Below, piece by piece: positions 5,274-49,512 of a stretch of DNA of 64,000 bases. Each line of letters begins with the position of its first letter. Within the stretch, counting starts at the first letter, position 1. The stretch spans positions 2,744,001 through 2,808,000 of the forward strand of contig NC_008347.1 of NCBI RefSeq assembly GCF_000014745.1. Direction: 5' to 3'. Position numbers and translations under genes: made by a program. This stretch comes from Maricaulis maris MCS10 (GTDB lineage Bacteria > Pseudomonadota > Alphaproteobacteria > Caulobacterales > Maricaulaceae). The notes beneath the pieces are model-generated. The model saw only the letters and a list, made by a program, of their open reading frames with translations. It was not told where the DNA came from and ran no database searches.

Positions 5274-6446
5274 TTACCCCCAAACCTCATCATAGAGCGC
5301 GATGATCTCGTCTGCGGTCGGTATGCGAGGGTTGTTGCCCGGTGAACCGGAGGCCAGCGCCTGCTCGGCCATCAAGGGACGCAATTGCTGCCAGCGAGCG
5401 GGCTCGATACCGAAGCCGGTCGGCGTGGGGACACCCAATTCCGCGTTCAACCCCCGCAACTCCTCCAGCAGCGCGCCATTGGCAAGCTCGTCACCCGCCC
5501 CCTCACCGACCAGCCCCATTGCCCGTGCGCAATCGGCATAGCGTGTCGGAGCGGCCGGGATCGACCAGGCCGTCACGGCAGGCAGAAGCATGGCGTTGGA
5601 AAGCCCGTGCGGAACGTGAAAGAAAGCCCCGATCGGGCGGCTCATGCCATGAACCAGCGCCACCGAGGCGTTGGAAAAGGCGATGCCGCCGAAACAGGCG
5701 CCGACAAGCAGGGCCTCCCGAGCCGCCGCGTCCTGGCCGTCATGGAAGGCCCGGCGCAGATTGGGCGCGATCAGCCGCATTGCGGCCAGAGCCTGCTGGT
5801 CGGAAAAAGGCGAGGCCTTGCGGCTGACATAGGCCTCGATGGCATGGGTCAGCGCGTCAATGCCCGTATCTGCCGTCACACGCGACGGCAGGGAAAGGGT
5901 CAGGTCCGGGTCCAGAATGGCGGCAACCGGCATGAAGGCGAGGCCCATGCACAGCATTTTCTCGTCATTCTCCGGATCGGTGATCACCGTCACCCGAGTC
6001 GCCTCAGACCCGGTGCCGGCCGTGGTCGGAATGGCGATCACGGGCATACCGGGCTCATCGACAAGGCGCGGCACCTTGTAGTCCCGCATCCGGCCACCAT
6101 GCGGCCCCAGCACGGCCAGCGCCTTGGCCGTGTCGATGGCGCTGCCACCGCCAAGTGCCACCAGACCGTCAAAGGCCTGCCCGTCCAGGCCGGCCCGCAG
6201 GATGGCTTCCGCCGCGACCACCGACGTCTCCGTTGGTTCCGGCTCGGTCTCCGAAAACAGGCCGCAAGGCAGACCCGCCTCCGCCAGGGCAGCGGTCAGT
6301 CGCCCGACATAACCCAGCGACACCATGGTCGGGTCCGTCACGATTAGTGGCCGGGATACGCCGCAACAGGCCAGGAGCTTGCCGATCTCGGCAAGCGAAC
6401 CCGAGCCGGTGCGGATCAGGCGGGGCAGCACCAGGGAATGCGTCAT
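5274..6446 (-). CDS. Iron-containing (group III) alcohol dehydrogenase
   Basis: 390 residues from the ATG ending at 6446; a frame extension to 6467 is possible but would run back to within a base of the upstream stop. The nucleotide-binding signature GGGSAIDTAK, the segment TTAGTGSEATR, TGIDALTHAIEAYVS and the His-bearing segments VHGMSRPIGAFFHVPHG are those of Fe-dependent alcohol dehydrogenases, where Asp and His residues hold the metal. It would interconvert an alcohol or lactaldehyde-like substrate and its aldehyde with NAD(P). It lies 21 bases after a dienelactone-hydrolase-like gene on the same strand, which suggests co-transcription in some small-molecule degradation route; the substrate is unknown. 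Confidence 0.88.
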   Translation of the reverse strand: MTHSLVLPRLIRTGSGSLAEIGKLLACCGVSRPLIVTDPTMVSLGYVGRLTAALAEAGLPCGLFSETEPEPTETSVVAAEAILRAGLDGQAFDGLVALGGGSAIDTAKALAVLGPHGGRMRDYKVPRLVDEPGMPVIAIPTTAGTGSEATRVTVITDPENDEKMLCMGLAFMPVAAILDPDLTLSLPSRVTADTGIDALTHAIEAYVSRKASPFSDQQALAAMRLIAPNLRRAFHDGQDAAAREALLVGACFGGIAFSNASVALVHGMSRPIGAFFHVPHGLSNAMLLPAVTAWSIPAAPTRYADCARAMGLVGEGAGDELANGALLEELRGLNAELGVPTPTGFGIEPARWQQLRPLMAEQALASGSPGNNPRIPTADEIIALYDEVWG

Positions 6447-46494: not shown

Positions 46495-47022
46495 ATGACC
46501 GATAGTCAGACACCGACCCTCTTCCCTGCCGGCGGCGCGCCAGCCGCCCGGGCCCAGGACTTCGCCGCTTCGGAAATGTTCCAGAAGCTGTTTCGCGAAG
46601 GCATGGACATGGTGGAAGAGACGGCCAGCTATCTGGACGGGCCGGGTCGCGATGATTCCAAGTCTCTGGATCGCGCCGGGGCGCTGTCCTACGCGACCGA
46701 GAGCATGAAGCTGACTACCCGCCTGATGCAGGCTGCCTCCTGGCTGCTGGCCCAGCGGGCCGTCGCCGAAGGCGAGATGTCTGCCGAGGCGGCAACGGAT
46801 GGGAAATACCGGCTCACCGCAGACCGTCCGGATGAAAACCTGTGGCCGGACGGCGAAACCCCGCCAGCCGTGCTGGGTGACCTCGTGCGTCGGTCGCGCT
46901 CGCTCTATGCCCGCCTCAAGCGCATTGACGACAATCTCTATGTCGACGGGGTGATCGAAGCGGAAGCCAATCCGGTCGCCGACCAGATGGCCATGCTGCG
47001 CGGCGCCTTCGGCCAGCGCTAG
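46495..47022 (+). CDS. DUF1465 protein
   Basis: 175 residues from the ATG at 46495 (the longer frame from 46423 lacks a ribosome site). All-helical; SEMFQKLFREGMDMVEETASYLDG and TTRLMQAASWLLAQRAVAEGEM are characteristic of DUF1465, followed by LVRRSRSLYARLKRIDDNL. Alphaproteobacterial, function unknown to me. Its stop overlaps the converging XRE regulator by 4 bases. Confidence 0.88.
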   Translation: MTDSQTPTLFPAGGAPAARAQDFAASEMFQKLFREGMDMVEETASYLDGPGRDDSKSLDRAGALSYATESMKLTTRLMQAASWLLAQRAVAEGEMSAEAATDGKYRLTADRPDENLWPDGETPPAVLGDLVRRSRSLYARLKRIDDNLYVDGVIEAEANPVADQMAMLRGAFGQR

Positions 47023-47639
47023 CCTAGGTCTTTCAGGCTGAACAGCTTGTCACGAACGATTTTCAGCGATGAAGTGTGTTCAGACGGATCCTGGTCTGTC
47101 GGGGTCGGGATGCGGACTTCCAACCGCACGATTACTTCACTGTGCGGGACCCGAAAACTCGTCAAGCTGAGCTCGACCGGTCTGATCTTCCCATGGCGGT
47201 GAAGCAGCGTGACGCCCGAGGCGGATTCAACGCGCCCCTCGAACAGTCCCGCTTCAACCAGACGGCCGAGCTGAGCATCCACGTCGGGGCCGAACAGGCC
47301 ATGGATAGGTTTACCGACATCGTCATGGCCCAGGAATTCGGTCAGCTCTGCTGCACTGTCGCTGATCAGATCAAACACCACACCTTCGTCGCGATCGACA
47401 AGCAGCCCGGCGACATTCGGACTGGTGCGTACACTCACCCGCAATGCCTCGATAAAACGTGCGGCCGGCGTCTTCGCGAGCCTCTTGAGGAGCTTTGACT
47501 GTATGTTCGGTGGCGGCTCAGAAACGCCGCGCTCCCACTGACTGACACTGGCTTGGCTAACGCCGAGCTGCAGGGCCAGGGCATCCTGCTTGATATCTTC
47601 GAAGTGCCGCAGTTCCTTGATTTTGTTGACCCAACTCAT
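47019..47639 (-). CDS. XRE helix-turn-helix regulator with PAS-like sensor domain
   Basis: 206 residues from the ATG ending at 47639 (a TTG three bases upstream also possible). An XRE DNA-binding domain occupies residues about 5-60 (DALALQLGVSQASVSQWERG). After a linker, residues about 72-185 resemble a PAS domain (LLVDRDEGVVFDLI, FGPDVDAQL, and strands ending VIVRLEVRIP). It may bind a cofactor or ligand and repress neighbouring genes. It lies 89 bases after the BLUF gene on the same strand; the gap is AT-rich and may hold its own promoter. Confidence 0.8.
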   Translation of the reverse strand: MSWVNKIKELRHFEDIKQDALALQLGVSQASVSQWERGVSEPPPNIQSKLLKRLAKTPAARFIEALRVSVRTSPNVAGLLVDRDEGVVFDLISDSAAELTEFLGHDDVGKPIHGLFGPDVDAQLGRLVEAGLFEGRVESASGVTLLHRHGKIRPVELSLTSFRVPHSEVIVRLEVRIPTPTDQDPSEHTSSLKIVRDKLFSLKDLG

Positions 47640-47728
47640 CAATAATATTCTTACTTAAATTATGGCCTCTGCGATACTTTCTGCCCGTCGGATACCACGA
47701 ACTCCAGCGTTATTTTACTATATTTCCC

Positions 47729-48154
47729 TCATACGGGCTGCAATACATCGCCGGATCGCATCGCGCTGCATATTTGTTCCAGAAAGCCCGCACTGGTGAC
47801 AACTTCCGGTGATCGAAACCAGGGCTGCCAGCGGATATCTCCCGGCAGTCGGCGGACATAAACCTGCCAGGTATCGAACCGCCGCTCATCGATCTCAGCC
47901 ATCCCAGCCAGCACCAGATCACAGTGACGTGGATCACTGGCAATGCGCAAAAAGGTCTCGGTAATCCGCGCTCGAGGGCCCTCGAGTACCTGAATGAACA
48001 TGTCATCGTCGACGACCAGAACGCCTGTGATGCCGCGCGCCGGATTATTGCGCCGGCCAGCCGCGAGAATATCCTCCAGCACTCTCCTGGCTGCCGGATC
48101 CGCCCCGACCTTCCAGGCCCGGCGACTGAAGAAAGTCAAACGGGATAACAGCAT
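47729..48154 (-). CDS. BLUF-domain flavoprotein with Tyr8 replaced by Phe
   Basis: 141 residues, a single BLUF domain and short helical C terminus like PixD (Slr1694). Flavin-pocket residues are kept: Asn37 in RRNNPARGITGV, Gln55 in FIQVLEG, the DPRH segment (74-77) and Trp96 in FDTWQVY. However, the first strand reads LSRLTFFS: the position of the photoactive Tyr (Tyr8 in PixD, Tyr21 in AppA) is Phe8. In studied BLUF proteins this change abolishes the light reaction. The start codon overlaps the stop of the globin-coupled chemoreceptor gene, so the two are one unit. Likely binds FAD; light sensing is doubtful. Confidence 0.87.
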   Translation of the reverse strand: MLLSRLTFFSRRAWKVGADPAARRVLEDILAAGRRNNPARGITGVLVVDDDMFIQVLEGPRARITETFLRIASDPRHCDLVLAGMAEIDERRFDTWQVYVRRLPGDIRWQPWFRSPEVVTSAGFLEQICSAMRSGDVLQPV

Positions 48155-49512
48155 CAGTCAGCTGCGCCCGACCGGGTCGCAGCCAGAAAGCCATCGACCT
48201 GTTCTCGCAAGCGCGTCACGTCGCGCCGGACGGCACTGGCCTCGGAAGTGACGTCCGATGAGACTTCCGAGCACTGGCGCACGCTGATTTCAAGGCGGGC
48301 GGTAGCATCTACCCCGGCACTATTGCCCTTGGTCGCCTCATTGGCGCTGCGGACGATCTCACGGATTGCGCTTGATTGTTCCTCGATCGTCGCATTGATG
48401 CTGACTGACGCTTCGTCAACCGCTCTTATGGTATCCCGCATGCCCGAAATGGCATCACCCGCCGTCCGGGCGCCGTCCTGAACCGCGCTGATCTGCTGGC
48501 TTATACGTTCGGTAGCCTTTGCAGTCTGGTGCGCGAGGGATTTCACCTCGCCGGCCACGACCGCGAACCCGGCACCGGCCTCACCCGCGCGAGCGGCTTC
48601 AATAGTTGCATTGAGCGCGAGGAGATTCGTCTGCTCCGCGATCTCCTGGATCAGCCCCACAATTGTTCCGATTTCCCGGGCAGCCTCGGAAAGGTTCTCC
48701 ATGTCGGCGCTGGCCACACCGACCTGGTCAACAGCCGAGCGGGCCCGCAGGCTTGTCTGATTCACTTGGCCCGATATCTCATCGACCGCGCCGCGCATCT
48801 GCTCGGCCGCAGCCACGACCGTCTGCACATTCTTCAAGGCCGAATCGGCCTCCCTTGCTGTCAGTGTCGCATCTTCCAGTGTGTGATCGACCGATTCAGC
48901 TACGTTGCCAGAGACGACGTCAAGTCGGTCCGATGTCCCTTCAAGATTCTCGAGAATTTCGGCAACACTCGCTTCCAGCCCGTCAGCGATTTCTTGCCTC
49001 GCCTTGCTGGCCCGGATATCGCCCGCTTCCAGATAGGTCGACAGGGCAAGCTCCATGTCCAGGAAGACCGCTCTAATGAGCGCATCGACCTTGGCTGCCG
49101 TGGCCTCAAACTGCTTGGTTCGTGATACCCGGTTCCGTTGGCCGGACTGGATCACGCCTCGCACCAGGGAGGAGGCGATACCGGCATAGCCGGCCACATA
49201 ATAGCGAGGCTCCAGACCAATCTCGAAATGGACCTCGCCAATGCGCCGCACATTATCGAAGTATGCGGTGTCATATTCGCCCGACAGGATGCGCTGCCAG
49301 TGCTTGATCTGGTGTCGCTTCGCATGCGCGCGGTGGTCATCATTGCGAAACAACACATCCACTTCCGGAGCCCGGGACAGGGTGTTGTAGAATACTTCCA
49401 GCGCCTCTTCGAGAACCGGAGGCAACTCGGCCTGCATGGAGCGCAAGCTCTCGCGCGTGACCTCACCAACGCCAAATTCTTGCAGGCGACCGTCCATTGC
49501 TTTGCTAGCCAA
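48154..49512 (-). CDS. Globin-coupled soluble chemoreceptor (HemAT-like)
   Basis: 452 residues from a TTG ending at 49512, which has AAGGGG at good distance; the ATG at 49497 lacks a ribosome site. Residues about 15-170 form a globin-coupled sensor domain with [14 protein letters not shown] and the proximal haem His95 in [17 protein letters not shown]. No membrane helix. The C-terminal signalling hairpin (about 230-430) is a complete MCP domain with tip [21 protein letters not shown]. It should sense O2 (or NO/CO) through haem and signal to a CheA kinase, controlling taxis. No che genes are in the window. Followed without gap by the BLUF gene. Confidence 0.92.

Follow-up and report, generated by a model that had tools for sequence, protein, structure and literature searches.

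A BLUF gene between a globin chemoreceptor and an XRE-PAS regulator

The window analysed here, a stretch of 64,000 nucleotides from Maricaulis maris MCS10 (NC_008347.1, positions 2,744,001 to 2,808,000), contains on its minus strand a gene (47729..48154) coding for a 141-residue protein that is, by homology, a member of the BLUF-domain family (Pfam PF04940: E=1.2e-24, 86.6 bits against a curated cut-off of 25). The AlphaFold model of this protein (mean pLDDT 89.1, pTM 0.86) displays the strand and helix order of BLUF domains, and a Foldseek search initiated with it recovered as the best PDB matches PixD/Slr1694 (2hfn and 2hfo), the Y8F mutant of TePixD (8i98), Tll0078 and the Y8F mutant of PixD (3mzi); the match to PixD (E 6e-10) is in line with the ferredoxin-like fold of the family. 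The profile match and the model together indicate that the protein has a true BLUF fold and is probably a flavin binder. An Rfam search of the region returned zero matches.

The start codon of the BLUF gene shares one base (TGATG) with the stop codon of a gene on the same strand for a soluble haem-globin chemoreceptor (protoglobin-MCP, 48154..49512; Pfam Protoglobin 9e-31, MCPsignal 3e-30). Downstream of BLUF, again on the minus strand, lies a gene for a regulator combining XRE (HTH_3) and PAS domains (47019..47642; Pfam HTH_3 1.4e-7, PAS 6.8e-5), the AlphaFold model of which shows an HTH and a PAS fold, with LOV/PAS structures as the nearest folds in PDB. Three further XRE-PAS-like genes occur in a row outside the window (G000:C1:422154-423915, G000 being the M. 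maris genome), and similar rows are found in most Maricaulis genomes.

Examination of the residues lining the flavin pocket (all codons on the minus strand) bore out the sequence-only reading of this stretch, which had described a BLUF protein whose photoactive Tyr is replaced by Phe in an otherwise well-kept pocket. Codon 8 is TTC (48131..48133) and aligns with Tyr8 of PixD, equivalent to Tyr21 of AppA. The flavin-contacting Asn and Gln and the nearby Trp typical of the family are all retained, namely Asn37 (48044..48046; the flavin-contacting Asn32 of PixD), Gln55 (47990..47992; PixD Gln50) and Trp96 (47867..47869; PixD Trp91), the last being the likely remaining electron donor (PMC10799861); Pro75-Arg76-His77 are likewise present. 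The protein thus departs from the canonical BLUF photoreceptor at two positions: the Tyr of the reactive Tyr-Gln pair is Phe8, and the signal-relay Met of strand beta-5 is Val98 (47861..47863; PixD Met93). A sequencing error at codon 8 is unlikely, because the genome is a single contig of 3,368,780 bp with a completeness of 99.99%, and because TTC also occurs in the assemblies of two other species. The sequence-only reading had been silent on Val98, on the XRE-PAS regulator and on the presence of Tyr8 in the nearest orthologues.

Met93 relays the signal in PixD, and its exchange for Ala (M93A) functionally locks the protein in its signalling state (PMC5899715). Met occupies this position in 210 of 264 aligned BLUF domains, and Val occupies it in all seven members of the Maricaulis clade to which the M. 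maris protein belongs and in most of the wider globin/XRE-linked group, a distribution that takes in proteins with Tyr8. This suggests a changed signal output across the whole globin/XRE-linked clade; the replacement of Met93 by Val alone cannot mean that the domain is locked, because it is common to Tyr8 orthologues that are presumably photoactive.

Distribution and origin of Phe8

To place Phe8 in context, we aligned 264 distinct BLUF domains; the set covers the GTDB family in full, samples of the order and the phylum, and the yield of one genome-contig scan. In this sample, which is partial and biased to strong matches, position 8 is Tyr in 254 domains, Phe in three, His in one, Met or Leu in five, and a gap in one. 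One of the Met calls (L195) probably reflects a misplaced N-terminus; the remaining domains with Met or Leu are copies of a degenerate paralogue in Maricaulis. Phe8 is therefore rare but not unique, its carriers being M. maris (G000), M. salignorans DSM 16077 (G066) and the metagenome-assembled genome (MAG) HXMU1422-2 (G069), all three with TTC at codon 8 and with the Asn, Gln and Trp intact. All of them fall within the one seven-member Maricaulis clade, a concentration with a probability of about 1e-5 were the cases independent, though the phylogeny reduces them to about two events. Both plasmid BLUFs that we examined have Tyr8.

A search of the literature, with subscription papers mostly outside its coverage, found no report of a natural BLUF devoid of the Tyr. 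The pattern of Losi (2014) proves only in part that Phe8 was overlooked, since two of the three Phe8 proteins still match it by virtue of another Tyr. Nor does Tyr9 provide a general substitute: G066 has FY at positions 8 and 9, but YY occurs in Tyr8 orthologues and M. maris has FF.

The nearest orthologues (M. parjimensis, M. alexandrii and the MAG IN27; 55-62% identity) have Tyr8, as does every outgroup. Approximately unbiased (AU) tests on two genes reject a single origin of Phe8: with site 8 masked, the BLUF tree rejects the three Phe8 proteins as one clade (p-AU 0.0055), and the neighbouring globin-MCP gene rejects a clade of G000 and G066 (p-AU 4e-6). One loss common to G069 and G066 is compatible with the BLUF data (p 0.325); the long branches of the BLUF tree leave its finer branching order unsure. 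As Tyr is found in all outgroups and a single Phe8 clade is rejected, at least two changes from Tyr to Phe are the simplest and most likely history; alternatively, Tyr may have been lost and then regained.

A second BLUF-fold protein is encoded outside the window (G000:C1:2452683-2453117, minus strand; loci L083 and L304-L321) and is present in 18 of 19 Maricaulis genomes. In this paralogue Tyr is replaced by Leu, Met or Ile, the flavin-contacting Asn by Ser or Cys, and Gln mostly by Glu or by others; Trp is present in all 17 aligned copies. These substitutions suggest that this genus-wide pseudo-BLUF probably cannot bind flavin normally.

Gene neighborhood and constraint

The combination of globin-MCP, BLUF and XRE genes is a recurrent module across Maricaulaceae. 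The globin-MCP gene adjoins BLUF in the Tyr8 genomes G065, G062, G075, G080, G092, G008, G089 and G097; Tyr8 orthologues that are equally close to it include those of M. parjimensis, M. alexandrii, the MAG BWSM_11 and Marinicauda salina. Phe8 and Tyr8 genomes both retain the proximal-His motif of the globin. An XRE-type HTH gene lies near most BLUFs of the clade, the match in distant members possibly resting on the HTH alone. The BLUF loci that we sampled outside the clade have neither a globin-MCP nor an XRE-type gene next to them. In the Phe8 MAG HXMU1422-2 (L087 / L066), BLUF is followed by the XRE-PAS gene and there is no globin-MCP beside it; a search of that entire genome found no orthologue of the chemoreceptor, the best matches covering mainly the MCP signalling part. 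Synteny thus rules out a correlation of Phe8 with the globin: the link is older than Phe8 and does not follow its distribution, since Tyr8 orthologues are linked too and G069 does without the globin-MCP. The argument of the sequence-only reading, which took the close association with a haem-globin chemoreceptor as a sign of a redox role, therefore fails, although such a role is possible on other grounds, given that Trp96 is kept and that Tyr-less BLUFs can photoreduce.

Comparison of the M. maris gene with its Tyr8 orthologues gave NG86 dN/dS values of about 0.26-0.46, with dS near saturation, and changes at third codon positions dominate the divergence, which suggests that the reading frame is still constrained. 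The constraint is weaker than that seen among the Tyr8 trio; the neighbouring genes also diverge more across the same split. In length the M. maris protein falls short of its Tyr8 orthologues by about 12 residues. Just past its TGA and upstream of the XRE-PAS gene lies a 22-nt block, TAGTAAAATAACGCTGGAGTTC (47699..47720, minus strand), which four Maricaulis share almost letter for letter although the DNA around it has diverged. In three Tyr8 orthologues this block lies inside the BLUF reading frame, with two silent changes in one of them. It is possibly a candidate operator or promoter of the XRE-PAS gene, or else the lost C-terminal tail of BLUF.

Possible signalling by a BLUF domain with Phe8

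Starting from a pocket that lacks the canonical Tyr and is otherwise kept, we infer that the M. maris protein is probably no longer an ordinary light switch. Our preferred reading, which we put at about even odds (roughly 0.5), is that it binds flavin in a BLUF fold but, with the canonical Tyr-Gln switch gone, regulates its operon partners uncoupled from light, either constitutively or as tuned by the redox state of the flavin. With Phe at position 8 the side chain of Gln would no longer be held by the Tyr hydroxyl, and the normal red-shifted photocycle would therefore be unable to form. The domain would most likely be fixed in one conformation resembling a pseudo-signalling state, and its output would go to the globin chemoreceptor, the adjacent XRE-PAS regulator or both, partners that gene order only points to. 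Studies on engineered proteins agree with the statement of the sequence-only reading that changing Tyr to Phe abolishes the normal photocycle: the published mutants are photoinactive 'in every case' (PMC9486806), AppA Y21F being not photoactivatable, with its Gln freed (PMC10799861). The evidence on what the substitution does instead is mixed, with a pseudo-lit structure suggested by one PDB title (3MZI, where PixD Y8F is called a 'pseudo-Signaling State') and photoreduction reported in others. The locked state of PixD M93A, at the site that is Val98 here, points in the direction of the preferred reading, with the reservation given above.

Photoreduction underlies the main rival to this reading, which we consider about half as probable. 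Here the domain would still sense light, with Trp96 passing an electron to the excited FAD and Gln55 relaying a proton, and the signal would be a long-lived neutral semiquinone (or hydroquinone) that oxygen resets; light and oxygen would thus be sensed together, much as in natural Cys-less LOV proteins. All three Phe8 proteins retain both residues. In Tyr-to-Phe mutants of three BLUFs (AppA, PixD and OaPAC) Gln is freed and charge separation occurs from Trp, which gives the flavin an electron and, in some cases, protons too (PMC10799861); photoreduction yields FADH- in OaPAC Y6F and the semiquinone in bPAC Y7F (PMC9486806); and removal of the Tyr is reported to permit efficient photoreduction to a neutral semiquinone, through which a cyclase is regulated, its polarity being inverted (PMC4682037). 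Against this, no natural example is known, the radical pair recombines fast in some mutants, and the sequence offers no added donor specific to Phe8. The full form of this scheme, in which the combined reading of light and oxygen is passed on to the globin chemoreceptor, the XRE-PAS regulator or both, making the protein a BLUF counterpart of Cys-less LOV, is a little less probable again.

It is rather doubtful that light sensing simply no longer matters and that the gene is drifting, with Phe8 as an early loss. The shorter protein, which ends just before the conserved block, the absence of the orthologue from many Maricaulis genomes and the erosion of Tyr, Asn and mostly Gln in the paralogue would fit such decay, but the intact Asn, Gln and Trp of all three Phe8 proteins, an open reading frame with dN/dS below 0.5 and the loss of Tyr in separate lineages with the frame still open argue against it. 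The sequence-only reading's own proposal of a purely redox or gas-linked flavin sensor serving the globin chemoreceptor, to which the one-base overlap and the kept proximal His lend some support, is the least probable, as Tyr8 orthologues have the same linkage and one Phe8 genome has no globin-MCP.

The preferred reading of a light-uncoupled regulator may be set beside several known systems. The M. maris protein resembles PixD/Slr1694 and Tll0078 in its fold, its short single-domain architecture, its Asn, Gln and Trp and its RNNPAxGITG and LEG motifs, and differs from them in having Phe8 for Tyr8 and Val for Met93; unlike PixD, it is linked to a globin-MCP and an XRE regulator rather than to PixE. 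It shares the substitution, its site and the kept Gln/Trp pocket with the engineered mutants PixD Y8F (3MZI), TePixD Y8F (8I98), AppA Y21F, OaPAC Y6F and bPAC Y7F, but the Phe8 of Maricaulis is natural and recurrent and occurs among other partners. The encoding of a BLUF protein together with a PAS/HTH transcription regulator and, more loosely, the conjunction of haem and oxygen sensing are reminiscent of AppA-PpsR, a BLUF antirepressor and a PAS-HTH repressor; however, the Maricaulis proteins are small and separate, their HTH is of the XRE type and N-terminal, and they are candidate interaction partners by gene adjacency. Natural Cys-less LOV proteins (PMC4682037) likewise combine a flavin photoreceptor fold and a kept flavin pocket with the loss in nature of the signature photochemical residue, although the Maricaulis protein is a BLUF and semiquinone signalling is here a proposal.

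A natural BLUF with Phe8 parallels the accounts of Cys-less and Gln-less LOV, and raises the question of whether BLUF domains signal without the photoactive Tyr, and whether what remains is redox, scaffold or light. The Phe8 proteins can be set against Tyr8 sister orthologues from M. parjimensis and M. alexandrii, both of them cultured species, which amounts to a natural Tyr/Phe experiment. Outside Maricaulis, a BLUF from a Rhodobacteraceae MAG (L115, match at 6001-6207) has His at the Tyr site (ALYQVLHVSQ) and keeps the Gln and Trp.
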